Shown here in pieces: positions 3,754 to 61,323 of a stretch of 64,000 nucleotides of DNA (positions are counted from its first letter, which is position 1; the number at the start of each line of letters is the position of its first letter). This DNA is from Halobacteriovorax sp. JY17. Its GTDB lineage: Bacteria > Bdellovibrionota > Bacteriovoracia > Bacteriovoracales > Bacteriovoracaceae. The DNA lies in the NCBI RefSeq assembly GCF_002753895.1, contig NZ_NJER01000002.1, forward strand, positions 372,001 to 436,000, in the 5' to 3' direction. Position numbers and translations under genes: made by a program. Below the pieces are notes generated by a model, which saw only the letters and a program-made list of their open reading frames with translations, did no database searches and was not told where the DNA came from.

Positions 3754-4984
3754 AAAAGTGGCAGTTGTTGGCCTCGGCTATATTGGGCTTCCTACTGCTG
3801 CTGTTGTGGCAAGTAGAGGAATGCAAGTTATTGGAATTGATAATAATAAAAAAGTTGTAGACACAATCAATAAAGGGGAAATTCACATTGTTGAGCCAGG
3901 GCTTGATATTGTTGTTCAGGCGTCAGTTTCCGCTGGTAATTTAGTAGCTTCTGAGGTGCCCGCTCATGCTGATGTTTATTTGATTGCAGTGCCTACTCCA
4001 TTCAAGGAAGGCAATGAGCCTGATGTTTCTTATGTAAAATCAGCAGTAATGGCAATTGCACCAGTTTTAAAAAAGAATGACTTGATTATTTTGGAGTCTA
4101 CTTCACCAGTAGGGACTACGGATAAAATGAGAGAGTGGTTGAGTGAGGCTCGTAAAGACTTGTTTTTTGCAAGTGAAGGAGTCGAGTCCTGTGATATTTA
4201 TCTAGCCTATTGTCCTGAAAGGGTTCTTCCTGGGCACGTTCTTAGAGAGCTTATTGAAAATGATCGTGTGATTGGTGGAATAAATAAGAAGAGTGGAGAA
4301 GTTGCAAAAAGATTTTACAAAACTTTTGTTGAAGGGGATTGTATTTTAACAAACTCTAGAACAGCTGAGATGACGAAACTAACTGAAAACTCGTTTAGAG
4401 ATGTTAATATCGCATTTGCGAATGAGCTATCTCTTCTTTGTGATCAATTTGATATTAATGTTTGGGAGTTAATTAAACTTGCAAATAGGCACCCTCGAGT
4501 TGATATTTTACAGCCAGGGCCAGGTGTTGGAGGGCATTGTATCTCGGTTGATCCATGGTTCCTTGTTCATCAGTCACCAAAGTATGCACGAATTATTAAA
4601 ACAGCTCGAGAAGTAAATGATTATAAACCTGAATATGTTGTTGATAAAGTCGCTGCAGCAGCATCGAAGTTTAAAGAACCAACGGTTGCCTTTTTTGGAC
4701 TTGCTTTTAAAGCAAATATCGATGATCTGAGAGAGAGTCCAGCAATGGAGATCGTTGAGAGTTTTGCTAGAAAAGGTTTTGGGAAATTAATGGTTGTTGA
4801 GCCAAATGTCGATTACCTGCCTAGTCAATTAACAGATCTACGAATAGTGAAGGCTGGTATTGATGAAGCTTTGAAAGAGTCAGATATACTTGTTTTACTA
4901 GTTGATCACAGTGAGTTTAGGGATATGAATAGGGATACTTTTGTATCGAAAATAGTAATTGATACAAGAGGGATTTGGAAGTGA
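3737..4984 (+). CDS. wecC: UDP-N-acetyl-D-mannosamine dehydrogenase
   Basis: The 415-residue product is a UDP-sugar dehydrogenase that oxidises UDP-ManNAc twice with NAD+ to UDP-ManNAcA. It carries the NAD-binding VGLGYIGLP motif (residues 11-19), the catalytic lysine K214 (EMTKLTEN), and the active-site cysteine C268 in GVGGHCISVDPWF, whose SVDPWF ending is typical of the ManNAc enzyme rather than UDP-glucose dehydrogenase. A GGAGG ribosome site lies about nine bases before the ATG, inside wecB. The immediately preceding wecB supplies its substrate. Confidence 0.93.
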   Translation: MKSEFKKVAVVGLGYIGLPTAAVVASRGMQVIGIDNNKKVVDTINKGEIHIVEPGLDIVVQASVSAGNLVASEVPAHADVYLIAVPTPFKEGNEPDVSYVKSAVMAIAPVLKKNDLIILESTSPVGTTDKMREWLSEARKDLFFASEGVESCDIYLAYCPERVLPGHVLRELIENDRVIGGINKKSGEVAKRFYKTFVEGDCILTNSRTAEMTKLTENSFRDVNIAFANELSLLCDQFDINVWELIKLANRHPRVDILQPGPGVGGHCISVDPWFLVHQSPKYARIIKTAREVNDYKPEYVVDKVAAAASKFKEPTVAFFGLAFKANIDDLRESPAMEIVESFARKGFGKLMVVEPNVDYLPSQLTDLRIVKAGIDEALKESDILVLLVDHSEFRDMNRDTFVSKIVIDTRGIWK

Positions 4985-7116
4985 AGCAAGTTGTGATTAA
5001 AGGTGGTGGTGCTGTCGTTGAAAAAGTTCCTACTCCGCAATTAGAGGCGGGGACGGTATTGGTAGAAGTTCAAGCATCATGTATTTCAATTGGTACAGAG
5101 ATGTCTGGAGTGAAGACTTCTGCTTTACCATTGTGGAAAAGGGCGATGAGGCAGCCTGAGAACGTAAAAAAAGTTTTTGAGTCTGTTGCTCAGCAGGGAA
5201 TGAATAGGACGATGAGCCTTGTCAAGGGAAAGCTTTCTGCTGGAAATGCGACAGGGTATTCCGCTGCCGGTAAAATTGTTGCAGTCGGAGCTGGTGTTGA
5301 AGGACTATTTCTGGGAGATCGAGTTGCTTGTGCAGGTGCTCAGTGTGCTCATCATGCAGAAATTATCAGAGTTCCTAGTAATCTTGCAGTTAAAGTTCCT
5401 GATAATATAACAATTGAGGAAGCCTCAACAGTTACACTTGGGGCTATTGCTCTACAAGGTGTGAGGAGAGCATCCCCAACACTTGGTGAGAAATTTGTTG
5501 TTGTTGGCCTAGGTGTTTTAGGACAATTAACAATGCAGTTTCTAAAAGCGAACGGATGTAATGTAATTGGTATTGATCTCGACACATCTCGTGTAGATGT
5601 TGCTACGGAACATGGAATGGACTATGGCCTTTCTAATGACTTTGGATCACACATAGATCAAGTCGCTAGGCTTACTGACGGTCACGGGGCAGATGGAGTA
5701 ATCATAACAGCAGCCACACCTTCTAATGAAGTTGTGAGCCACGCTTTTAAAATGACAAGAAAGAAAGGGAGAGTTGTTCTTGTTGGAGATGTTGGGCTCG
5801 ATCTCAATCGTGCAGACTTTTATGCCAAAGAAATTGATTTCTTTATATCCTGCTCATACGGACCTGGGCGATATGATAATAATTATGAAGAAAGAGGCCT
5901 TGACTACCCTTTACCTTTTGTTAGATGGACAGAAAATAGAAACATGGGGCAGTACTTGTCTCTTATTTCTCAAGGTAAAGTCGAAGTAAAGAAAATGGTT
6001 TCTAATGTATACCCTCTGGAAGATGCCTCAAAAGCGTATGAGTCTTTGAAAGATAATGGTGCGAAGGCCTTGATGGTATTGCTAAGCTATCCTGATAAAA
6101 AGCTCATAGATAAGCTTGAAACAAAAGTAGAGAATCCAATGTTTAGTTCTTCTTCAAAAGGGAAGGTTAAACTTGCTATTATCGGAGCAGGTGGGTTTGC
6201 TAAAGGGATGCATCTTCCAAATATTCAGAAGAGAAATGATCTCTTTAGTTTAAAAGCTATTGTGAGTAGAACGGGGCATAATGCAATGGCAACAGCAAAA
6301 CAATTTGCTGCAGAATACTCAAGTACAGATTTTAATGATGTTTTAAATGACGAGGACATTAATACAGTTGTTATTGCTACAAGACATAACTTACATGGTA
6401 AGATGGCTTTAGAGGCTTTGAAGTCAGGAAAAAACGTTCTTTTAGAAAAACCTTTAACAATTTTTGAAGATGAATTTAGAGAGATTAAGGACTATTTTTC
6501 TAAGAGAGAAGAGACACCAGTTCTTTTAACAGGTTACAATAGAAGATTTTCTCCTTATGTGCAGAAAATTAGAAGTCTTTTAAAAAATAGAACTAATCCA
6601 ATGATAATTAATTATAAAATGAACGCTGGCTTCTTGCCAAAAGATCACTGGACATTGAGTCCTGAAGAAGGTGGGGGAAGAAATATAGGTGAAGCGTGTC
6701 ACATTTACGATGTGTTTACTTTTTTAACGGATTCTGAATTTACAAGCGTTACTGTTCAAAATATTTGCCCCAAAACTGAACACTATTCGAGTAAAGATAA
6801 CTTTGTTGCAACATTTAAGTTTAAAGATGGTTCAGTCGCCACATTAACGTATACAGCAATTGGCAATAAAGAGTTTCCAAAAGAAAGCATGGAAGTCTTT
6901 TGCGATGGTCTTGTTGTTAGTTTAAATGATTATAAGAAGCTTGAAGTTTCTGGAAATAAACTTGTTTACTCTAGTCCCTCTCCAGAGAAAGGGCAAATGG
7001 AAGAGATTGTCGCTTTTGCAACTTCCATTAATGAAGGTAAAGAGTGGCCAATACCTTTATGGCAGCAGTTTCAGGTTACGGAAATGGCATTTGCAGTTGA
7101 TAGGGAGCTTGTTTAA
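4981..7116 (+). CDS. two-domain oxidoreductase (zinc-type dehydrogenase + Gfo/Idh/MocA)
   Basis: The N-terminal half (about residues 1-370) is a medium-chain dehydrogenase with a Rossmann motif VVGLGVLGQ near residue 175. The C-terminal half (about 395-710) is a Gfo/Idh/MocA dehydrogenase with AIIGAGGFAKG and the LLEKPL catalytic-lysine motif near 485-490. The GTG at 4981 is chosen over a TTG at 4975 because it overlaps the wecC stop (GTGA) and has AGAGGG seven to eight bases upstream. Such fusions are found in polysaccharide loci, but the substrate is not established to my knowledge. A second copy lies at 26135-28240. Position after wecC suggests action on a uronic or amino sugar. Confidence 0.85.
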   Translation: MKQVVIKGGGAVVEKVPTPQLEAGTVLVEVQASCISIGTEMSGVKTSALPLWKRAMRQPENVKKVFESVAQQGMNRTMSLVKGKLSAGNATGYSAAGKIVAVGAGVEGLFLGDRVACAGAQCAHHAEIIRVPSNLAVKVPDNITIEEASTVTLGAIALQGVRRASPTLGEKFVVVGLGVLGQLTMQFLKANGCNVIGIDLDTSRVDVATEHGMDYGLSNDFGSHIDQVARLTDGHGADGVIITAATPSNEVVSHAFKMTRKKGRVVLVGDVGLDLNRADFYAKEIDFFISCSYGPGRYDNNYEERGLDYPLPFVRWTENRNMGQYLSLISQGKVEVKKMVSNVYPLEDASKAYESLKDNGAKALMVLLSYPDKKLIDKLETKVENPMFSSSSKGKVKLAIIGAGGFAKGMHLPNIQKRNDLFSLKAIVSRTGHNAMATAKQFAAEYSSTDFNDVLNDEDINTVVIATRHNLHGKMALEALKSGKNVLLEKPLTIFEDEFREIKDYFSKREETPVLLTGYNRRFSPYVQKIRSLLKNRTNPMIINYKMNAGFLPKDHWTLSPEEGGGRNIGEACHIYDVFTFLTDSEFTSVTVQNICPKTEHYSSKDNFVATFKFKDGSVATLTYTAIGNKEFPKESMEVFCDGLVVSLNDYKKLEVSGNKLVYSSPSPEKGQMEEIVAFATSINEGKEWPIPLWQQFQVTEMAFAVDRELV

Positions 7117-13659: not shown

Positions 13660-15702
13660 GTGGGTTACTTAGGAAGAATAGTTCGTAGAAAGATATTTTC
13701 ATTTAAAGGTGAGGAAGCTATATTTAGCTCTGTTAATTTATTGTTAAGGAACTTACATATAAAACTAAAAAATAAATATAATTTAAAGTTCGTTGTAGGC
13801 TTTATTTTGTTTCTATATGCTTTTTTTTTTTCAAGAGCATTTCAGGAGACTACTTCCGTAAGGCCAAGTTGGTATCAGAGTTATCATTCCGCTTTTGTCA
13901 TGGCTTACTGTGGATTAGGCTTTAGTGACCCCATAACACGAACTCCTGAGTTTGAAGCCTTTTTGAATCAAGAGAGAAGCACTCTTGACTGCTCGTATGT
14001 AGTTGGAAAAACAAATGGAATCCGAGGACCCGAAGCTAAATATGGTGCATATGATTATCCTGTTTCGATAGGCTCAATGTATTTGGGTCAAGTTGTTGTT
14101 TGGCTCTGGAAAATTAATGGAGAGATGGACTGGGCGGTAACTCATAAACTTGGCTATCTGTTCTTCGCTCTCACTATTGTGATTAGTTATATTTTATTGT
14201 TGTGTTTTTTTCCATTTGCATACTCTTTGATTGGCTCTTTATTTTGGATGAGCTCTCCTTTTCATTTAGCCGAATTCCCACACTTAAGAGACTATAGTAA
14301 AGCCGTTTTTTTTGTAGGAGCACTTTTTGTTCTAAAGAAAGTAATTGATGAAAAGAGAGTTCGGTGGCGTTACTTTTATTCCGCGACTCTTGGCGCTATC
14401 TTGGGTATTGGTTGTGGTTTTCGTGCTGATTTAAAAATATTACTTCCTTTAATTGTTATTGTATTTATTATTCAATATGTGTCTCTAAAAAATAAAGAAT
14501 TCATTACAAGTCTTAGGAGAGTTATAGGTCTTCTTCTTGTTCTTATTTTTACTTTTTACTTATTGTATCTCCCCGTGAGTCTAAAATTAAAAGATGTAGA
14601 AAACCGTTTTTCTTACGACTCTGGGTTGTATCACGTCACTTTGCTGGGTCTCTATCCTTATCCAGGGGAAGAAATTGTAGTAAAGGAGAGTGTCATCAAG
14701 TTTTTACCATTTTTTGAAGACATATATTTAAGCATGAAACTAAATGGCTTTTCGAAACAAAGTTTGGGGCAGGAAGCTGTAATGGCCACTGATAATTATA
14801 GAGTTGCTGGAAAGGAGTATTTAATGAATATTCTAACGTCCTTCCCTAGCACTTTCATGAGGAGAGGTCTTGAAGCCTTTTGGGTCTCCTTTTCCTTGCC
14901 TTTCAAAAAAAATACTCAGAATTTTCACCTTCTAAAGGTGTGCAGTTTTTCTTTCTGTGAAAAAGTTGGAGAGATTACCGTAAGAACAAAGGAGTTCTTT
15001 ACTTCAATTTCTTACATAAGGGAAGTCTCCTTAACCCTAGGTATATTGATTTCTTTATTTGTTTTTAGAATGAAGAGTCTGCTTATTTTTTATTCAATAA
15101 CACTCTATCTGATGTTGTATCCTGCAATACAATTGTCTCCTCGTCATTATTTTCAAAATGAGCTTTTATCACTTATTATTTTATTATTTGTTTTATCGAC
15201 TCTTTTTAGTCGTTCGTTTTGGGGGAGTCGTATTAGATTCATAAGTTTTGTAAAGCGCTTGCTCATAGGAATAGTGAGTTTTTTATTAATATTTCTAACT
15301 TTTTATTACTATGAGCAAAATGTTGTTGGAAAATTTATAGAGAATGATTTGAAAGGTGCAAGGAAGACCGTTGTGGGAGGGGTCTGGAAAGACTTGGGAG
15401 GAGAAGGCTTCTCTTTCACTCCTAAACTAAAAATGAAGTATACATTTGAGTATTTAGAGTTTAACTTTAGCTTGGACTGTAAAGAGGGAAGCCTTACATT
15501 TTATGGAATGGAGAAAGATGGCAGTAAGAAAGTGTATGACACAATCTCTTTAGGGCGTTTTAGCAAAGCTTATTATCCAGTCTATGAAAAATCTTTTAAG
15601 GGAGTTGGTATTACTGATAGGAATTGTATTACTAGTGTAAAGAGAATTATTTTAAGTAAGAAGTTACCTATCCATTTATATGTTTTTTTAACAAAGAGTT
15701 AG
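13660..15702 (+). CDS. large polytopic membrane protein, possible GT-C-type glycosyltransferase
   Basis: The 680-residue frame has a short basic N-terminus, a membrane segment near residues 42-60, a hydrophilic loop (about 65-135) and eight to ten further membrane segments to about residue 560, then a soluble C-terminal domain of about 120 residues. This is the general plan of GT-C glycosyltransferases that use polyprenyl-phosphate sugars on the periplasmic side, but I see no decisive motif. The GTG at 13660 sits directly against an AGGA, which is too close; a TTG at 13741 is an alternative, so the start is uncertain. It is followed after seven bases by the broken rmlA. Confidence 0.6.
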   Translation: MGYLGRIVRRKIFSFKGEEAIFSSVNLLLRNLHIKLKNKYNLKFVVGFILFLYAFFFSRAFQETTSVRPSWYQSYHSAFVMAYCGLGFSDPITRTPEFEAFLNQERSTLDCSYVVGKTNGIRGPEAKYGAYDYPVSIGSMYLGQVVVWLWKINGEMDWAVTHKLGYLFFALTIVISYILLLCFFPFAYSLIGSLFWMSSPFHLAEFPHLRDYSKAVFFVGALFVLKKVIDEKRVRWRYFYSATLGAILGIGCGFRADLKILLPLIVIVFIIQYVSLKNKEFITSLRRVIGLLLVLIFTFYLLYLPVSLKLKDVENRFSYDSGLYHVTLLGLYPYPGEEIVVKESVIKFLPFFEDIYLSMKLNGFSKQSLGQEAVMATDNYRVAGKEYLMNILTSFPSTFMRRGLEAFWVSFSLPFKKNTQNFHLLKVCSFSFCEKVGEITVRTKEFFTSISYIREVSLTLGILISLFVFRMKSLLIFYSITLYLMLYPAIQLSPRHYFQNELLSLIILLFVLSTLFSRSFWGSRIRFISFVKRLLIGIVSFLLIFLTFYYYEQNVVGKFIENDLKGARKTVVGGVWKDLGGEGFSFTPKLKMKYTFEYLEFNFSLDCKEGSLTFYGMEKDGSKKVYDTISLGRFSKAYYPVYEKSFKGVGITDRNCITSVKRIILSKKLPIHLYVFLTKS

Positions 15703-15709
15703 GGGGGGG

Positions 15710-16352
15710 ATGAGAGGTATAATTTTAGCAGGAGGAGCAGGTTCTAGGCTTTATCCAGCAACAGAAGTTATAACTAAACAGTTACTTCCTGTTTATGACA
15801 AGCCAATGATCTACTATCCTCTAAGCCTTCTTATGTTAGGAGGGATTAGGGAGATTCTTGTTATTACGACTCCACGGGGTTTTGAGATGTTTCAAGCATT
15901 ATTGGGAGATGGATCCCATCTTGGAATTAAGATTGAGTTTGAAGAGCAGGACAAGCCATCTGTCCCTAGATCTAAGTATGCAATTCCTGGATTGTATGTA
16001 TTTGATAAATCTGTCTGCCAAAAGGCTAGAGAGTTAAAGCCTAGTTCAAGAGGGGAAATTGAGATTATTGATATTTTAAAGAAGTACTTAGAAAGTAATG
16101 ACCTTAGCGTGCAAGTAATAAGCCGTGGAGTTGCGTGGCTTGATGCTGGAACTCCAAAGTCATTGTTAGGGGCGTCATCTTGTGTTTCTGCGATTGAAGA
16201 AGGGCAGGGTTTTAAAGTAGCGTGTTTAGAAGAAGTTGCTTATAGAAAAAAAATATATTGATCGTGACGATTTAATTGCCCTTATGGAGGAGTTTCCAAA
16301 TTGTCTTTACCGTAATTATTTAAAAGAAGTTGTGCTTGAGGATGGAGCTTAA
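15710..16352 (+). pseudogene. rmlA: broken rmlA (glucose-1-phosphate thymidylyltransferase)
   Basis: The N-terminus (GIILAGGAGSRLYPATEV) and C-terminus (RGVAWLDAGTPKSLLGAS) are clearly RmlA, but aligned to the intact copy at 60451 about 78 residues are missing in frame between EEQDKP and SVPRSKYAIPGLYVF. The lost part includes the LGDNIYYG metal and nucleotide-sugar site. A second lesion follows: in an A8 run near 16251-16258 the frame shifts and stops at 16261; removing one A restores YIDRDDLIALMEEFPNCLYR and a stop at 16350-16352. The gene is therefore a relic, leaving wecE downstream dependent on the other rmlA for dTDP-glucose. Confidence 0.88.
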
Positions 16353-16376
16353 CCAATAGATTTAAAAGAGAAATTG

Positions 16377-17507
16377 ATGATTAAATTTAATGTTCCTGTT
16401 AGGGCAAGTAGTTATGACTTTTTAGAGGAAATAGAGGCATCTTGCAAGTATTCAGGAGATGGTCCTCTGACTCAGAAGTGTCACGAGTGGTTTGATAATC
16501 ACTTTAAGGGGGCGAAAACTCTATTTACAACATCTTGTACTCATGCGCTAGAAATGATGGCTTTGTTAATTGATGTAAAGCCAGGGGACGAAATTATTCT
16601 TCCAAGTTATACGTTTGTGACTAGTGGAAGTCCATTTGTTGCAAGAGGAGCGAAGCTTATTTTTGTAGATATAAACCCAGTAACAATGAATATTGATGAA
16701 AATAAGATCGAAGAGGCAGTAACAGAGAAAACAAAAGCTATCCTAATTGTTCACTATGCAGGATTTTCTTGTGATATTGATAAAGTGAAAGAAATCACTT
16801 CAAAGCATGGAGTGTTCCTGCTCGAGGATGCAGCTCAGGCATTGATGAGTAAGTATAAAGGGCAGAGTTTAGGAACTTTTGGAGATTTGTCAGCATTCTC
16901 TTTTCACGAAACAAAGAATTTTCACTGCGGGGAAGGGGGGCTCCTTGTTGTGAATAATTTAAATCTTTTTAAGAAAGCTGAGATGATAAGAGAGAAAGGA
17001 ACGGATAGGGCTTCATTCTTAAGAGGGGAAGTTGATAAATATACGTGGCAATGTTTGGGATCTAGTTATTTGCCTAGCGAGTTTAATGCAGGATTCTTGT
17101 TGGATCAGTTAAGACGTATAGAGGAGCTCAATAGTAGAAGAGTTGATCTTTGGTATAAATATAAAAGCTTGTTTAATGAGCTTGGCTCTTATGATGGTCT
17201 TACTTTTTGTGAAGACCTTGAATACTGTTCCCATAATGCACATATCTTTTACATTAAATTGAAAAATGGTCTCGAAAGAAAGAGCTTAAGGTCTTATCTC
17301 TTGAAAAAAGGTATTGAGTCGGCTTCTCATTATGTCCCCTTGCATACTTCCCCGGCTGGAATTCTGTATGGAGATTTCTTTGGGTCGGATAAGTACACGA
17401 CAAAGGAGAGTGAGAGAGTTTTGAGGTTGCCTATGCATACCTCTCTTAGTGATAAAGACTTAGTAAGGGTTCGGGATAGTGTCAGAGATTATTTTATGGA
17501 GCTTTAA
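16377..17507 (+). CDS. wecE: dTDP-4-amino-4,6-dideoxygalactose transaminase
   Basis: The 376-residue protein belongs to the DegT/DnrJ/EryC1/StrS aminotransferases and matches WecE/RffA: GDGPLTQKCHEWF at the start, TSCTHALEM, LEDAAQALMSKYKG and the PLP lysine in SFHETKNFHCGEGG (about residue 180). It would transfer the glutamate amino group to C4 of dTDP-4-keto-6-deoxyglucose. The ATG at 16377 has AAGAGA upstream and is preferred to the TTG three bases earlier. Its keto-sugar substrate needs RmlA and RmlB, whose intact genes lie far away at 58-61 kb. The following WbqC-family gene starts two bases after its stop. Confidence 0.92.
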   Translation: MIKFNVPVRASSYDFLEEIEASCKYSGDGPLTQKCHEWFDNHFKGAKTLFTTSCTHALEMMALLIDVKPGDEIILPSYTFVTSGSPFVARGAKLIFVDINPVTMNIDENKIEEAVTEKTKAILIVHYAGFSCDIDKVKEITSKHGVFLLEDAAQALMSKYKGQSLGTFGDLSAFSFHETKNFHCGEGGLLVVNNLNLFKKAEMIREKGTDRASFLRGEVDKYTWQCLGSSYLPSEFNAGFLLDQLRRIEELNSRRVDLWYKYKSLFNELGSYDGLTFCEDLEYCSHNAHIFYIKLKNGLERKSLRSYLLKKGIESASHYVPLHTSPAGILYGDFFGSDKYTTKESERVLRLPMHTSLSDKDLVRVRDSVRDYFMEL

Positions 17508-17509
17508 TT

Positions 17510-18214
17510 ATGGAAAAGGTTGTTGTTTTACAGTCGAATTACTTTCCTTGGATAGGTTATTTTGATTTGATTTCTTCTGCAGATAAATTCATTTTTTATG
17601 ATGAGGTTAAGTACACTAAGAATGACTGGAGAAATAGAAATAAGGTCCGCTCTGATGGTAAAACTCACTGGATTACTATCCCTGTTTGCAAGAGTTCTGA
17701 AAAGAAGAAAATATCAGAGGTTTCTTTAGACTTTAATCCTGGCTGGAAAAAGTCACATATGTCTTTGTTGGAATTTTGCTACAAAAAGAAGCCAATGTTT
17801 TCCAAGCAGTTAAAGCCACTTTTAGAGCACTTCCTGTTTGAAAAAGAGACAAACTCTCTCAGCGAGTTGAATAGATATATTATCAAGTATCTTTCTTATG
17901 AAATGAAGCTAGATACATTGTTTCTAGACTCTCATGATTTTGTGTTGGAGAGCGGAAAGCAGGAGCGGTTGATTAGCTTGTTGAGTGAATTTTCGCCTTG
18001 TTCTTATCTGTCAGGACCTTCGGCCAAGGGGTATTTGGAGAGCTCTGAGCGTGTTCTAGCTGAGAAAGGGGTTGATGTTGAGTATTTCGCATACCCTGGT
18101 TATGAGCCTTATGGAGGACTTGTTTACAATGGGGAGTCAGTTCTTGATTTTATGGCGCATGAGAAACTTTCTTTTTTTAAAGATTATCTAAGGATGAGTG
18201 CTGGTGGCAAATAG
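17510..18214 (+). CDS. WbqC-family protein
   Basis: This 234-residue soluble protein shows the WbqC-like family pattern: VVLQSNYFPWIGYFDLI at the start, FYDEVKYTKNDWRNRNKV near residues 30-47 and ITIPV. The family is common in O-antigen clusters and often sits beside aminosugar transaminases, but its reaction is not firmly established; a role in modifying a 4-amino sugar is plausible. It begins two bases after wecE with GGAG in the wecE end as ribosome site, which links the two. No acetyltransferase of the WecD type is seen nearby, so WbqC might act at that step. Confidence 0.85.
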   Translation: MEKVVVLQSNYFPWIGYFDLISSADKFIFYDEVKYTKNDWRNRNKVRSDGKTHWITIPVCKSSEKKKISEVSLDFNPGWKKSHMSLLEFCYKKKPMFSKQLKPLLEHFLFEKETNSLSELNRYIIKYLSYEMKLDTLFLDSHDFVLESGKQERLISLLSEFSPCSYLSGPSAKGYLESSERVLAEKGVDVEYFAYPGYEPYGGLVYNGESVLDFMAHEKLSFFKDYLRMSAGGK

Positions 18215-18325
18215 AAAGAAGGGCGCGGTTTAGAAGATTATTTTAAATTGTTAATCTATACTTTTTATTTTAATTTTTGAATCCAAGGTGATAGTTTCTA
18301 AATATACAATTTGATGGAGTAAAAA

Positions 18326-19096
18326 ATGACTGAAAATAAACATGAATCTGCTGTTGTTTCCTATTCGGATAATATTAGCATAGAGGCAAGGAAGAAAATC
18401 TATAGCAACTTATTAGCGTATCCTGCAACTCCTGAGGAATCGGAAAGATCTCTGGGGCTTTTTGTTAGAGGCTCGTTGTTGGCAAGGTTTCTTGCGACAA
18501 AAGAGTTATATGATCAAATCTTAAATCTGCCGGGTGTAATTTTAGATTTAGGTACATGGAGAGGGCAAACTGCGGTCTTATGTGAAAATCTAAGGGCAGT
18601 ACTTGAGCCTCTTCATTTAAATAGAAGAATCGCTTGCTTTGATACATTTGAAGGGTATGTCGGATTTGGTGAAAAAGATTTACCTACAGACTTACACGCT
18701 GATGGAACTTATAAAGTTGGCCAGGATTATGATAGCTACCTTAGTGAGCTTTTGGAGTTGCATGAAAAGAGTAATGCGATGGGACATAATTATGGTAAGC
18801 ATAAGGTCTTTAAGGGGGATATCAGGGAGACTTTGCCGACATTTTTTAAGGAAAACCCTGGAGAGGTTGTCTCTTTAGCATTTTTTGATTTAAATTCTTA
18901 TGCACCTACGTCATCTTCTTTCAAGACTGTTTATGATAGATTGGTTCCAGGTGGAGTTATTGCGTTTTGGCAGCTAACAAGAAATACAATTCCAGCAGAG
19001 GGAATGGTTTATTCTAATGAAATATTGAGAAGCTATAAGCATAAAATTAAAAGAGCACAGTATTACCCAGGGCTATGCTACATAGTTAAGGAGTAG
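18326..19096 (+). CDS. TylF/MycF-like sugar O-methyltransferase
   Basis: The 256-residue protein has a class I methyltransferase core with motif I VILDLGTWRGQTAVL (about residues 70-84), CFDTFEGY and VSLAFFDLNSY, the pattern of the TylF family that methylates sugar hydroxyls in a metal-dependent way. In this operon a deoxyamino sugar or a glycan end is the likely acceptor. A 111-base AT-rich gap separates it from the WbqC gene and may hold a promoter, though none was clearly seen; GGAG sits six bases before the ATG. The FAD oxidoreductase gene starts five bases after its stop. Confidence 0.8.
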   Translation: MTENKHESAVVSYSDNISIEARKKIYSNLLAYPATPEESERSLGLFVRGSLLARFLATKELYDQILNLPGVILDLGTWRGQTAVLCENLRAVLEPLHLNRRIACFDTFEGYVGFGEKDLPTDLHADGTYKVGQDYDSYLSELLELHEKSNAMGHNYGKHKVFKGDIRETLPTFFKENPGEVVSLAFFDLNSYAPTSSSFKTVYDRLVPGGVIAFWQLTRNTIPAEGMVYSNEILRSYKHKIKRAQYYPGLCYIVKE

Positions 19097-19101
19097 TAAC
19101 T

Positions 19102-20502
19102 ATGAAAGTTGTTATTGCAGGGAATGGAATATTATCCTATACAGCGGCTCTCTCTTTGATAACAGAGGATAAGTCTGTTGAGGTTTCAATAATAGGGCCT
19201 CGAGATAATAAAGGATGTGCATCATTGGCTGCTGCGGCAATGTTTAACTCTTTTTGTGAAGTCGATGTAGGGACATTTTCTAATCGTTTTGATAAAGAAA
19301 AATTTTTATTTAATAGGAGAGCGGCTCCATTGTGGGTAGAGTATATCAAAAGGCTAGAAGAGCTTAGTCATGTAAAGATTAATCATGGCTTTGGGACATT
19401 CTTGATTAATAACCACTCTACAGATGAGTTAGAAGATAGAAACTTTGATGCAATTCTTGGGGCATTAAGTGAGTTTAATGAGCCTCATGAAATGGTAAAG
19501 CTTAACTCTGTTGAGAACTATAGACCCATGCCAAATGATAGAGGCTCTCGCGCTGTATATATTCCACGTGAAGGTTGGGTAAACCCTATTGATTTGATGA
19601 ATTCTCTTAAGATTATTTTGGAGAGAAGTGAGAGGGTGGTCTTTCGTGATGGTTATGCAAAAAGGTTAAATTTTCAGGGTGATAAAATTCAAGATGTAGA
19701 GCTAGAGTGCGGTGAGAGTGTTTCAGGAGATGTTTTTCTGCTTGCTGCTGGAGCTAATTTTTCAAAGATAGTCGATGCTTCAAACTTTGATGTACAATTT
19801 CCGAGGATATTCTATGGAGTAGGAGCAAGTATTCTTCTTGAGACGGGAGAGAATACCCTTAAGAATTGTGTAAGAACTCCGAATCGAGGCTTAGCTTGTG
19901 GGCTCTATGCTGCGCCGCAGACGTCGACTAAGACTTTGATTGGAGCTAGTAACTTCATATCTCCAATCCCAGAAGACGGGGTTCGTCTAACAAGTTTACA
20001 TGGTCTAGTTGAGTCTTCAATTAGGCAGTTAAATTCTGACTTCTATAGAAGTCAGTTTGTAAGATCAAATATTGGCTGGAGACCAACTTCAGAGGATACT
20101 GTTCCATTAATCGGAGAAACTTCTTATGAAAATCTTATTATTGCAACAGGGACTAAAAGAGATGGGCTTCACTGTTCGCCATTAATTTCGGAGATACTTT
20201 GTAATTTAGTTCTTGGTAAGGAGCAAGGGATAGATATTTCTCTTTTTAAGCCAGAGAGGGAGCCTTATAAAGTTTATTCTAGAGAGTATGCTATAAAAGC
20301 TTCCGTTGATAATATTATCAACGCATCTTATCAGCATGGATTTAAGTCTGCGATGAATAGAATGGTTGAGGATATGATTAGCTACCATACGAGAGAACTT
20401 GAAGAGCTTCATGATAAAGTAGGTGCTATCGACTGGGGGATACCCCCTGAGATGATCAACATGTATAGGTATGGGCATGCAACGCTTGTGAGAAATGTTT
20501 GA
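19102..20502 (+). CDS. FAD-dependent oxidoreductase, DAO-like
   Basis: The 466-residue protein has an N-terminal dinucleotide-binding VVIAGNGILSYTAALSL motif and the DAO-family middle segment (GCASLAAAAMFNSFCE, about residues 38-53). The C-terminal FAD-contact segment is LIIATGTKRDGLHCSP, near residue 350, followed by an extra domain of about 85 residues that contains several histidines and arginines. DAO proteins oxidise amino acids or amines; such an enzyme is unusual inside an O-antigen block, and the substrate is unknown. AAGGAG lies eight bases before the ATG. Its place between a sugar methyltransferase and a polyprenyl-phosphate transferase suggests a sugar-linked or acyl-precursor oxidation. 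Confidence 0.75.
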   Translation: MKVVIAGNGILSYTAALSLITEDKSVEVSIIGPRDNKGCASLAAAAMFNSFCEVDVGTFSNRFDKEKFLFNRRAAPLWVEYIKRLEELSHVKINHGFGTFLINNHSTDELEDRNFDAILGALSEFNEPHEMVKLNSVENYRPMPNDRGSRAVYIPREGWVNPIDLMNSLKIILERSERVVFRDGYAKRLNFQGDKIQDVELECGESVSGDVFLLAAGANFSKIVDASNFDVQFPRIFYGVGASILLETGENTLKNCVRTPNRGLACGLYAAPQTSTKTLIGASNFISPIPEDGVRLTSLHGLVESSIRQLNSDFYRSQFVRSNIGWRPTSEDTVPLIGETSYENLIIATGTKRDGLHCSPLISEILCNLVLGKEQGIDISLFKPEREPYKVYSREYAIKASVDNIINASYQHGFKSAMNRMVEDMISYHTRELEELHDKVGAIDWGIPPEMINMYRYGHATLVRNV

Positions 20503-21422
20503 AGCTAAGTGTCGTCACCTCCTTGTATGATTCAGAAAAGGTTGTTGGAGATTTTTACCTCCGGCATCTTAAGGTTATTAAAAAACTCAATTTAGACTAC
20601 GAGTTTATTTTTGTTGACGATGGTTCTCCGGATGAATCGTGTCTCAAAGTTGAAGAAGTCTTAGAGAAAGATGATAGAGTCAAGCTTATTAAGCTTTCAA
20701 GAAATTTTGGTCAGCATGCAGCAATGTTTGCGGGGTTAGGTTATGCGAAAGGTGATGTCATATATGCCGCAGATTGCGACCTTGAGGAGGCACCAGAAAA
20801 CTTAAGTGAGATGTATCTTTTGTACACTAAAAGTGGTTCCGATGTTGTTTATGGTGTGACAGAGGAGAGGAGTGGTGATTTTGTACGTAGCTTTCTTGGA
20901 AAGTGTTTTTATGATCTACTAGACTTTGCTTCAGAAGTTAAAATCCCAAGAAATCAAGCATGGCAAAGGGTTATGTCACGTAGATATTTAGACGCTCTTC
21001 TAAGCTTTAAAGAGGTAAACTCTTTACCTATTGGACTAATGGCCCTTTCGGGTTTTGAGCAATTGTCTTACACGATTGAAAAGCCATATAAAGGAGCAAC
21101 ATCATACAACTTCCTAAAGCGCTATAAGCTTGCTTTAGATTGTCTGCTTTCATATTCAACTAAGCCTCTTGTCGCAATTGTATTTTTTGGGTTTATAATA
21201 ACCCTCATTTCTTTTTTATGTGCAGTTAGTATTGTTGTTCAGAAAACTATATTCCAAAATCAATTTGATATAGGTTGGCCTTCAATAGTAATTGTTATTC
21301 TTTTTATGGGAGGAGTGCAACTTGTATCTTCTGGCGTAATAGGTCTTTATGTTTCAAAAACATATGACCAGGTCAAGAACAGGCCAAAGTATATTATTAA
21401 AGATGTTGTGGATAACTCTTAG
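20499..21422 (+). CDS. polyprenyl-phosphate glycosyltransferase (GT2, GtrB/ArnC type)
   Basis: The 307-residue protein has a GT2 catalytic domain (SVVTSLYDSEKVVGDF, FVDDGSPDE, and DCDLEEAP as the metal-binding DxD site near residue 92) followed by two C-terminal membrane segments (about 228-250 and 262-285). This is the layout of enzymes that load a sugar onto undecaprenyl phosphate for use by GT-C transferases in the periplasm. The TTG start overlaps the FAD oxidoreductase stop by four bases. Its partner could be one of the large membrane proteins nearby, such as those at 13660 or 21419. The 3' end overlaps the opposing gene by four bases. Confidence 0.88.
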   Translation: MKLSVVTSLYDSEKVVGDFYLRHLKVIKKLNLDYEFIFVDDGSPDESCLKVEEVLEKDDRVKLIKLSRNFGQHAAMFAGLGYAKGDVIYAADCDLEEAPENLSEMYLLYTKSGSDVVYGVTEERSGDFVRSFLGKCFYDLLDFASEVKIPRNQAWQRVMSRRYLDALLSFKEVNSLPIGLMALSGFEQLSYTIEKPYKGATSYNFLKRYKLALDCLLSYSTKPLVAIVFFGFIITLISFLCAVSIVVQKTIFQNQFDIGWPSIVIVILFMGGVQLVSSGVIGLYVSKTYDQVKNRPKYIIKDVVDNS

Positions 21423-26134: not shown

Positions 26135-28240
26135 ATGAAGCAGCTTTTTCAAAGTTTAAAAACAGGTAAAGTTAAAATAGAGGAACTTCCTGTTCCTTAT
26201 TGTGCAGCGGGATATGTGTTGATTCAAACGACAAGGACACTTGTCTCGTTGGGAACAGAAAAAATGTTACTTAACTTTGGGAAGGCAAATCTTATTAATA
26301 AAGTAAGGCAGCAACCTGAAAAAGTTCAACAAGTTCTAACGAAAGTGAAAACTGATGGTCTTACTCCAACTTTTAACGCAGTTAGAAACAAGCTGGGCCA
26401 ACCTTTACCTTTAGGCTACTCTTCAGTCGGTGTCGTTGTAGAAGTTGGAAAGAATGTTAACGATTTAAAGCCTGGTGATCGAGTAGTTTCTAATGCACCT
26501 CATGCCGAATTTGCCTCAGTATCGCGTAATCTTGTTGCTAAAATTCCTGAACATGTTTCAGATGAGAGTGCTTCCTTTACTGTTGTGGGTGCTATTGGGC
26601 TACAGGGAATACGTCTATTGACTCCATCTTTTGGGGAAACGATTGTCGTTGTCGGTCTTGGCCTTATAGGATTACTTACGGTTCAGCTTTTAAGAGCAAA
26701 TGGTTGTCAAGTCATTGGATTTGACTTTGATGAAGAAAAGGTAAATAAGGCAAAATCTTATGGTGCCAAAGCATTTGTTGTAAGTGAAACCGTTGACCCT
26801 GTTGCCGAAGCTTTAAATCAGACAAATGGTGTTGGAGTTGACGGAGTAATTATAACAGCTTCGACCAGAAGTAATGATGTAATTTCTCAAGCTGCTCAAA
26901 TGACAAGAGTTAGAGGAAAGGTAATTCTTGTTGGTGTTGTCGGTCTTGATATTAAAAGGTCTGACTTTTATGAAAAAGAAATAACTTTTCAAGTCTCATG
27001 CTCCTATGGGCCAGGTAGGTATGATCCTAAGTATGAGGATATGGGGATTGATTATCCAATTGGATTTGCAAGATGGACCGAACAAAGAAACTTTGAAGCT
27101 GTTCTTCAAAGCCTTGAAGAGGGGACATTGATTGTTGAAGATCTTATTACTCGTAAGGTTGATTTTCAAAATGCTCCAGAATTATATAGCGGCTTGGGAA
27201 GTCAATCATTAGAGTTAGGAATAATTATTTCGTATGGAGAGGAAGTTAAAGAGCTTAATAAAAGTATCTATTACGAAAAAAGCTCAAAAAGTTCTTCTAT
27301 ATCTGTTTCAATGATAGGTGCCGGGCAATTTGCTGGAGCTGTTCTTTTACCGGCATTTGAAAAGAGTGAGTTCGAATTTCAAAAAATTGGGAGTCGCTCA
27401 TCAGGAGCAATGGCGCCACATCTTAGAGAGAAGTTTAAATTTGAAGAGCTAACAAGTGATTATGACAGGGTTTTAGAAGACAAGGGAGTAAGGAATGTTG
27501 TTATTACAACGAGACATAACTCTCACGGCGCCCTTGTAATTAGGGCCTTGAAAAATGGAAAAAATGTTTTTGTAGAGAAGCCTCTTGCCTTATCTATGGA
27601 TGAAGTAGACGAGATAGAAAACTTCTACAAAAAGGAGGGGTTCCCAAAACCGTTACTAATGGTAGGTTTTAATAGAAGATTTTCTCCATTGGCACAGGAA
27701 CTTAAAAAAACACTAAAAAAATCTTCTGCTTCGAGAGCTTTTGTAATGACAATTAATGCTGGAGCCATTCCAAAAGATCACTGGACGCAAGATGCTACCG
27801 TTGGTGGTGGGCGTCTTATTGGAGAGGGATGTCACTTTATTGATCTTTTGAGATTTTTGTCAGATTCAAAAATAGTGGATTCTAGTGTTAGTGTTATGAA
27901 GTCTGACTGTAAGGATACTTTTTCAATTCAGTTGGAATTTGAAAATGGTGATATTGGAACTATTCATTATTTTGCTAATGGTAATAAATCTTTCTCTAAA
28001 GAGAGGCTCGAGGTTTTTGTTGGAGGGAAAATTATAGTCCTAGATAATTTTAAGAAGTTAACAGGAATAGGCTTAAAGAGTATAAAGTATGCGCTAAAAT
28101 CACAAGATAAAGGACATCTAAATGAAGTGAAAGCATTTAAAGAAGGACTAGAGTCTGGTTCTTTTCCAATTCCTTTGGAGGAGATATTGGAGATATCGAG
28201 GTGTTCGATTACTCTACAGGAAAAAATTAGAAATCTATGA
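26135..28240 (+). CDS. two-domain oxidoreductase, second copy
   Basis: This 701-residue protein has the same plan as the one at 4981: a medium-chain dehydrogenase half with VVGLGLIGL near residue 172, and a Gfo/Idh/MocA half with SMIGAGQFAGAVLLP near 391 and FVEKPLALS near 479. Both copies contain SCSYGPGRYD in the first half and PKDHWT in the second, so they are clear paralogs. Divergent transcription from the heparinase-like gene over only 44 bases, and overlap (ATGA) with the following glycosyltransferase, place it in a plus-strand unit of three genes. The substrate is unknown, but the recurring neighbourhood points to a uronic acid-type sugar. Confidence 0.85.
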   Translation: MKQLFQSLKTGKVKIEELPVPYCAAGYVLIQTTRTLVSLGTEKMLLNFGKANLINKVRQQPEKVQQVLTKVKTDGLTPTFNAVRNKLGQPLPLGYSSVGVVVEVGKNVNDLKPGDRVVSNAPHAEFASVSRNLVAKIPEHVSDESASFTVVGAIGLQGIRLLTPSFGETIVVVGLGLIGLLTVQLLRANGCQVIGFDFDEEKVNKAKSYGAKAFVVSETVDPVAEALNQTNGVGVDGVIITASTRSNDVISQAAQMTRVRGKVILVGVVGLDIKRSDFYEKEITFQVSCSYGPGRYDPKYEDMGIDYPIGFARWTEQRNFEAVLQSLEEGTLIVEDLITRKVDFQNAPELYSGLGSQSLELGIIISYGEEVKELNKSIYYEKSSKSSSISVSMIGAGQFAGAVLLPAFEKSEFEFQKIGSRSSGAMAPHLREKFKFEELTSDYDRVLEDKGVRNVVITTRHNSHGALVIRALKNGKNVFVEKPLALSMDEVDEIENFYKKEGFPKPLLMVGFNRRFSPLAQELKKTLKKSSASRAFVMTINAGAIPKDHWTQDATVGGGRLIGEGCHFIDLLRFLSDSKIVDSSVSVMKSDCKDTFSIQLEFENGDIGTIHYFANGNKSFSKERLEVFVGGKIIVLDNFKKLTGIGLKSIKYALKSQDKGHLNEVKAFKEGLESGSFPIPLEEILEISRCSITLQEKIRNL

Positions 28241-59912: not shown

Positions 59913-60454
59913 AATCTCTCTTTAAGGCCATTAAAACTTGGCAGAATTTGATCTTTTTCTGATAAGGAAATATCAGATTCTGGAATCAACCAATCGATAG
60001 CAATACTTGGATCATTAAAAATAAAACCAGCTTCACTTTCTTTATTATAGTAGTTATCAACTTTATATTGAAAGATTGCCTCTTTAGATAGAACTACAAA
60101 GCCGTGGGCAAATCCTCTTGGAATAAAAATTTGCTTGTGATTTTCTTCGGAGAGCTTCACTGATAGATACTTTCCAAAAGTGGCAGAATCTGGTCTTAAG
60201 TCAACTGCTACGTCTAAAACCTCTCCCTTAGTGACACGGACAAGCTTTGCCTGAGCGTGATCTCCCCGTTGGAGGTGCATACCTCTTAAAGTTCCATAGG
60301 TAGAGAAAGATTGATTATCTTGTACAAATTTAGTGGTAATTCCATTTTCTAGAAAAGATTTTTCATTATAGCTTTCAAAGAAATGACCTCTCTCATCTTC
60401 AAAAACTCTTGGAGTGAAAATCACAAGATCCTTTATAAAAGTAGTCTCGATCAT
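59909..60454 (-). CDS. rmlC: dTDP-4-dehydrorhamnose 3,5-epimerase
   Basis: The 181-residue cupin epimerises C3 and C5 of dTDP-4-keto-6-deoxyglucose. Visible features are [17 protein letters not shown] at the start, [11 protein letters not shown] with the catalytic histidine near residue 61, [17 protein letters not shown], and [14 protein letters not shown]. It overlaps rmlA and rmlD by four bases each, in the order rmlA, rmlC, rmlD, rmlB. Confidence 0.95.
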
Positions 60455-61323
60455 TTGCTCTCCTTTAAAACTCTTAGTAAGTGTTGACCATAATCACTCT
60501 TTGATAATTGCTGGGCCATACTTTCAACAGCTTCGGCAGTTATCCAACCCTTTTTAAAAGCAATTTCTTCAAGACAGGCAATTTTTAGTCCCTGCCTCTT
60601 CTCAATTGTTTGAATGAAGTTAGAGGCTTCAAGCAGTGAAGAGTGTGTTCCAGTATCGAGCCATGCGATCCCTCTTCCTAGAAGCTCCATCTCTAAATCA
60701 CCTCTTTCAAGATAGGCTTGATTAACAGAAGTTATTTCAAGCTCTCCTCTTTTTGACGGCTTAACATTTTTTGCAATTTCAATAACATCGTTGTCATAGA
60801 AGTAGAGTCCAGTGACAGCGTAATTTGATTTAGGCTCTAATGGCTTTTCCTCAATGGAAATAACTTTCCTTTCTTTATTAAACTCAGCAACGCCATATCT
60901 CTCTGGATCATTTACATAGTAACCAAATATTTTAGCTCCCTTAGTTAACGTAGAAGCATTTTCAAGTTTTGTCGTTAATCCATGGCCATAGTAAATATTG
61001 TCACCAAGGATTAAGCAAACTTCATCATTTCCAATAAAGTCTTCTCCAATGATAAAAGCCTGTGCTAATCCATCAGGGGAGGATTGCTCGGCGTAGGATA
61101 AATTAAGTCCTATATTAGATCCATCTCCTAAGAGATTTTTAAAGTTTGGAAGATCTCTCGGTGTCGAGATGATTAAAATATCTTGAATTCCAGAAAGCAT
61201 TAAAACTGAAAGTGGATAGTAGATCATCGGTTTGTCATATACGGGAATTATCTGCTTTGAAATAGATAGTGTTGCTGGATGGAGACGAGTGCCAGAGCCT
61301 CCTGCTAGAATGATTCCTTTCAC
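60451..61323 (-). CDS. rmlA: glucose-1-phosphate thymidylyltransferase (intact)
   Basis: The 290-residue enzyme makes dTDP-glucose from dTTP and glucose-1-phosphate. It has [47 protein letters not shown] and [11 protein letters not shown] with the metal-binding aspartate, and [18 protein letters not shown]. Length and motifs are complete, unlike the broken copy at 15710. It overlaps the glycosyltransferase upstream and rmlC downstream by four bases each. It is the only visible intact source of dTDP-glucose for this region. Confidence 0.96.

Follow-up and report, generated by a model that had tools for sequence, protein, structure and literature searches.

What becomes of a surface amino sugar when the gene for its aminotransferase is followed by that for a flavin adenine dinucleotide (FAD) enzyme of the DAO family? 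This question is raised by a stretch of 64,000 nucleotides (hereafter the window) from Halobacteriovorax sp. JY17 (GCF_002753895.1, contig NZ_NJER01000002.1, positions 372,001-436,000 of the forward strand). Four genes lie there in a row, wecE (sugar C4 aminotransferase for dTDP-4-amino-4,6-dideoxygalactose, the deoxythymidine diphosphate sugar; 16377-17507), wbqC (WbqC-family protein; 17510-18214), a TylF/CalS11-like methyltransferase gene (18326-19096), and the FAD enzyme gene (19102-20502), all collinear on the + strand and separated by 2, 111, and 5 bp. The coordinates and families of these genes, given in the initial annotation, were verified, and all four products score over their cut-offs. 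The cassette proves both real and conserved; its FAD enzyme represents a new variant among the N-formimidoyl/iminoacetyl synthases, here in glycan biosynthesis, a family overlooked at first. Computation shows directly the family assignments, the fold prediction, the retained cysteine and arginines, the clade, and the gene co-occurrence described below.

The FAD enzyme scores over the Pfam cut-off for PF01266, and by phmmer its nearest solved relatives are all structures of Orf1 (E 6e-50), the next being a glycine oxidase (E 4e-11). Orf1 serves the BD-12 pathway of Streptomyces luteocolor as its N-formimidoyl/iminoacetyl synthase (PMC10156733). An AlphaFold (AF2) model of the window enzyme, built from 42 homologues with a mean confidence (pLDDT) of 92.9, was superimposed on Orf1 (7xqa and sister structures) over 462 of 466 residues, with a TM-score of 0.93, a Z of 50, and a root-mean-square deviation (rmsd) of 1.7 A; glycine oxidases gave a Z of 40 at most, and their alignment stops at about residue 387. 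An extra C-terminal part had been pointed out in the initial annotation, and indeed about 80 residues extend past the glycine-oxidase fold; in the model, this part is the helical domain (residues 388-466, approximately) that distinguishes the Orf1 family and that in Orf1 contributes to the acceptor site (PMC10156733). The combination by which the family is recognized, a GR2/DAO FAD fold with a C-terminal helical domain of about 100 residues, is present. A plain glycine or D-amino-acid oxidase was considered and rejected: the protein scores 97.7 bits against the glycine oxidase (ThiO) model TIGR02352 (cut-off 250.8), and those ThiO proteins of related genomes that exceed the curated cut-off carry neither the RTPNRxxACG motif discussed below nor the C-terminal extension.

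Orf1 binds the glycine carboxylate through R342 and R368 and oxidises this substrate at FAD; the group is then carried as an adduct on C281 (an N-O-S, or NOS, bridge) and delivered to an amine that occupies a second site, 13.5 A distant (PMC10156733). By residue mapping, the equivalents in the window enzyme are C266 (C281), R327 (R342), and R353 (R368), and A44, A46, and M47 of the Orf1 glycine site are also present. A genome scan for homologues gave 80 loci, of which 35 (38-57% identity) form one monophyletic clade with the window protein (support 100/99) and 45 fall outside it (29-34% identity). Upon comparison of the 36 clade sequences with 51 other homologues, both glycine-binding arginines were found in all 36 clade members and the NOS-forming cysteine, within its RTPNRxxACG motif, in 35, the general pattern for synthases of the Orf1/Fms14 type being RTxNRxxACG.

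Several observations nevertheless weigh against an amidine as the product. H284 of Orf1 is replaced by Y in 36/36 clade members (Y269 in the window enzyme) and Y294 by L, V, or I in 35/36 (L279), while both are intact in all 51 homologues outside the clade. E426 is likewise replaced by Q in every clade member (Q411), being E in 49 of the 51 others, and the Orf1 E426Q mutant retains glycine oxidation but yields no product (PMC10156733); this change is the main reason for doubt over the amidine. The acceptor-site residues R306, E312, E313, and F316 of Orf1 are not conserved, and one clade member (L018, 187-1632) is alone in having G in place of the NOS cysteine. Given the behaviour of the E426Q mutant, the chemistry of the clade or the amino acid that it uses may differ, or the adduct may sit elsewhere. 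Since the H284-Y294 dyad and E426 are not kept, the window FAD enzyme is, as judged from its sequence, a sister variant of the characterised Orf1/Fms14-type group and not a member of it.

The same replacements, together with that of G55 by A in 26 of the 36 clade members, speak for a reading that we consider unlikely, in which the FAD enzyme performs no second half-reaction and, with no glycine donor, oxidises an amino-acid-derived acyl group (for instance, a glycyl group installed by WbqC) or an N-substituent on the sugar, giving an imine, an oxime, a glyoxylyl, or a cleaved product. The NOS-linked residue is Q throughout the clade, as in the Orf1 mutant that only oxidises glycine, and the glycine-site dyad is gone. 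The NOS cysteine and its motif, however, would be superfluous for a plain oxidase and yet are kept in all clade members but one, and the domain corresponding to the Orf1 acceptor site is retained in full.

A shade less likely again is that the same machinery uses another donor such as alanine, leading to an N-acetimidoyl group or a related amidine. N-acetimidoyl groups are known on some bacterial glycans, being installed there by other enzymes, and their presence on such glycans is discussed in the literature; the changes G55A and H284Y both fall in the glycine site. The carboxylate arginines and A44, A46, and M47 are, however, unchanged, the model fits Orf1 closely, and there is no pointer to any specific alternative donor.

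The genes around the FAD gene were compared among the clade loci, which come from Bacteroidota, alpha-, beta-, and gammaproteobacteria, Myxococcota, Elusimicrobiota, and one Dadabacteria metagenome-assembled genome. The methyltransferase gene is present in 25 of the 35 loci and directly upstream of the FAD gene (within 100 bp) in 24, the products in these 24 loci being 45-68% identical to that of the window. WbqC was found in 23/35 loci, a WecE-type aminotransferase in 24/35, any sugar aminotransferase in 29/35, and the complete four-gene set in 19/35; with at least 12 kb of flank available, 24 of 25 loci have a sugar aminotransferase. All the WecE homologues tested from the cassettes (23/23) match WecE models at E<=1e-80. 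Three near-duplicate pairs (L016/L022, L025/L028, L020/L033) are included, so that these counts slightly overstate independence. The 45 loci outside the clade, chiefly actinobacterial, myxobacterial, and from Lysobacter, and mostly of antibiotic type, gave no methyltransferase, no WbqC, and only one, weak, aminotransferase match. The co-occurrence suggested in the initial annotation is thus borne out, and the refuting case that it named, a FAD gene occurring widely without wecE and wbqC, does not hold for the clade, yet three fully covered loci (L030, L031, and L045) lack both.

Two of these three loci contain an alternative cassette (L031, 4572-11446; L045, 6089-13230) composed of a DegT aminotransferase, a methyltransferase, an HAD hydrolase, a cytidylyltransferase-like protein, an epimerase, and the FAD enzyme, with neither WbqC nor a TylF-like gene; the L031 cassette also carries a radical SAM-SPASM protein. 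In two Bacteroidota genomes, a second FAD gene copy of the clade lies on another contig (L010/L030 and L008/L035), the cassette being absent from the available sequence around it. Such copies, the abundance of DAO-family enzymes, and the weak TIGR02352 match might suggest an amino-acid oxidase of unrelated metabolic role, placed in the polysaccharide cluster by chance, but this is highly improbable because of the synteny, that is, the methyltransferase directly upstream in most loci of several phyla and the aminotransferase in nearly all long loci.

Flagellin or FliD genes adjoin nine of the cassettes, and several of these flagellin-side cassettes, betaproteobacterial ones, carry a glycosyltransferase of about 1205 amino acids. 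Other cassettes, including that of the window, contain a GtrB-like transferase, accompanied in some cases by a small transporter of SMR type, an arrangement that suggests an undecaprenyl-phosphate route. No further copy of the FAD gene was detected among 369 genomes of the phylum to which the window belongs (E<=1e-10). One locus of the same family (L105) encodes WbqC (56%) and WecE (52%) with the methyltransferase and FAD genes absent, and for this reason the latter two look like a module added onto a pre-existing WecE-WbqC set.

WbqC matches PF08889 with 176 bits (gathering cut-off 21.3). Its AF2 model (pLDDT 89.8) aligns by VIA-align with BshC (4wbd) over 222 of 234 residues, with a Z of 14.8 and an rmsd of 3.0, the next fold matches being class I aminoacyl-tRNA synthetases and pantothenate synthetases with a Z of 8.0 and below. 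BshC is the putative cysteine ligase of the bacillithiol pathway, acting on the glucosaminyl-malate amine, and its ligase activity was undemonstrated in vitro as of 2015 (PMC4360819). This last point bears against a ligase role for WbqC, as do the failure of Foldseek with the WbqC model to give a significant match and the lack of a sequence link to BshC, hhalign giving a probability of 0.2% with shallow profiles. The Pfam search matched PF08889 only and not the BshC family PF10079, and the profile search of the PDB gave no match. Because the Foldseek and profile searches missed BshC, the relation is taken as a fold resemblance only; WbqC is, moreover, half the size of BshC. BshC itself was not found in 114 genomes of the phylum. 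Guided by the modelled fold, and by the proposal that BshC joins an amino acid to an amino-sugar amine, WbqC may ligate an acid, perhaps an amino acid, onto the 4-amine.

At loci devoid of the FAD gene, WbqC adjoins DegT aminotransferases, and at two rhizobial loci and one Azospirillum locus it occurs with an annotated acetyltransferase or transferase. The rhizobial cassettes (L143, 7001-9897; L144, 7001-9900) have the annotated transferase or acetyltransferase and no DAO gene; these transferases perhaps represent alternative caps for the same amine. No Escherichia coli WbqC with a known glycan was found by DNA similarity.

The first enzyme of the cassette, WecE, scores over the curated cut-offs of TIGR02379 (476.5 bits, cut-off 434.9) and PRK11706 (495.3 bits, cut-off 375), with 4piw (E 1e-116) and 6blg (E 1e-113) as its closest PDB entries. 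The methyltransferase matches PF05711 (33.1 bits, gathering cut-off 23), and its best PDB match is CalS11, a TDP-rhamnose 3'-O-methyltransferase (E 1e-33); on this similarity, it is probably a sugar-nucleotide O-methyltransferase. The absence of a WecD-type acetyltransferase, remarked on in the initial annotation, extends to the whole genome (TIGR02382, E<=1e-3).

From these data, we infer that glycine is the donor and an amidine the product, and likewise which amine accepts it, in what order the steps run, and what WbqC does, as follows. WecE would produce dTDP-4-amino-4,6-dideoxygalactose (dTDP-Fuc4N), the N4 of which may be aminoacylated by WbqC. The FAD enzyme would oxidise free glycine at the flavin, pass the oxidised glycine to the cysteine of RTPNRxxACG, and then cap an amine with an N-formimidoyl or N-iminoacetyl (amidine) group, the amine being either the sugar 4-amine itself, as proposed for KasN of the kasugamycin pathway, or the amine of the amino acid attached by WbqC, as in BD-12. 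Four loci (L031, L034, L039, and L045) that have the aminotransferase and the FAD enzyme with no WbqC in the available sequence suggest that the enzyme could act directly on the sugar amine. The TylF/CalS11-like enzyme would methylate the sugar nucleotide, and the GtrB-like transferase may load the sugar onto undecaprenyl phosphate for use outside the membrane. The reading that we consider the most likely, at about even odds, is that the cassette yields for a surface glycan such a methylated dTDP-4-amino-4,6-dideoxygalactose, with a glycine-derived amidine on its own amine or on that of an attached amino acid. The wider proposal is more tentative, falling somewhat short of even: that NOS-type flavoenzymes of a widely distributed clade install amidines derived from glycine on the 4-amino-4,6-dideoxyhexoses found in flagellin and surface polysaccharides, at some loci by way of an amino acid that WbqC, with its BshC fold, has ligated to the sugar beforehand. 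The initial annotation was on the right track in expecting an unusual methylated or acylated 4-amino-4,6-dideoxyhexose made in the absence of WecD, and an FAD enzyme acting via an amine or an amino acid; an oxidised hexose is unsupported, since the characterised enzymes of the Orf1 family build an amidine on an amine from free glycine and do not oxidise the sugar.

The proposed route may be compared with several known systems. Orf1 shares with the window enzyme the whole fold, including the C-terminal helical domain, the NOS cysteine motif, and the glycine-binding arginines, but the two are only about 28% identical and differ in the dyad, in E426, and in the acceptor-site residues; Orf1 belongs to an antibiotic cluster and the window enzyme to a cassette of the surface-glycan or flagellin type. 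In the BD-12 pathway, the Orf1 step is preceded by the addition of glycine by a Fem-like enzyme (PMC10156733). KasN has been proposed to modify the kasugamine precursor with a carboxyformimidoyl group derived from glycine (PMC8869731), and by its described chemistry and acceptor, not by alignment, it resembles the scheme for the window enzyme in acting on the amine of an aminotransferase-made 6-deoxy amino sugar, but in an antibiotic pathway by a uridine diphosphate (UDP)-sugar route. The flagellin viosamine island of Pseudomonas syringae (vioA, vioB, vioM, and vioT, with VioT of 1,173 amino acids; PMC3927599) is likewise a flagellin glycosylation locus, in which an aminotransferase for a 4-amino-4,6-dideoxyhexose and N-modification go together with a methyltransferase and a transferase of very large size, comparable to that of about 1205 amino acids in several betaproteobacterial cassettes. 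It differs in that VioB performs N-acylation with acyl carrier protein and fatty-acid-type enzymes and that neither DAO nor WbqC is present, the window cassette being instead part of a polysaccharide cluster that includes a GtrB-like transferase. With the wecE/wecD pair of the enterobacterial common antigen, the window has WecE in common, but WbqC, the methyltransferase, and the FAD enzyme follow wecE in place of wecD. In the open literature searched, no published link was found between Orf1-type enzymes and bacterial surface glycans, and nothing relevant on formimidoyl groups in polysaccharides except the kasugamycin paper (PMC8869731).

The initial annotation was correct for the four genes but missed the wider operon, which spans at least 13660-21422, and the decayed rmlA within it. 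The first gene (13660-15702, + strand) encodes a polytopic membrane protein of 680 amino acids with about nine hydrophobic segments; the Pfam and PHROG searches gave no match, and it is a candidate glycosyltransferase of GT-C type. The decayed rmlA (15710-16261, + strand; 183 amino acids) lacks 78 internal residues and ends early in pairwise alignment with an intact copy (60451-61323), and its split match to TIGR01207 scores 253 bits (cut-off 361). The intact copy lies on the - strand within an rmlABCD-like set. The last gene (20499-21422, + strand), overlapping the FAD gene by 4 bp, encodes a GtrB/ArnC-like family 2 glycosyltransferase that matches PHROG 841 (GtrB-like O-antigen conversion, E 1e-67 over about 302 residues) and PF00535; it has the GT2 domain and the C-terminal hydrophobic segments expected of GtrB, the ArnC and PgfS models match below cut-off, and it is a candidate undecaprenyl-phosphate sugar transferase. 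A phage origin was rejected, as phage records gave no match. Elsewhere in the window, a zinc alcohol dehydrogenase fused to a GFO/IDH/MocA oxidoreductase is encoded at 26135-28240, and the open reading frame at 4975-7116 appears to resemble it.

Among the homologues outside the clade, five actinobacterial proteins (L059, L066, L067, L075, and L079) have about 300 extra C-terminal residues, this region being a PrmC-like methyltransferase domain in L067. A distant homologue (about 29% identical; L005, 5850-9440) on plasmids of the P. syringae group adjoins a peptide deformylase and a 2-oxoglutarate oxygenase.

The glycans of these cassettes may bear a chemical group not previously reported on them. 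If the proposal holds, chemistry so far confined to a few antibiotics would be in use on the flagella and surface sugars of bacteria from several phyla, and a function would be assigned to the WbqC family. An unreported amidine-bearing sugar, detectable by mass spectrometry, would then be predicted, and the clade would offer natural variants, with Q at E426 and Y at H284, for probing the mechanism proposed for the NOS bridge.

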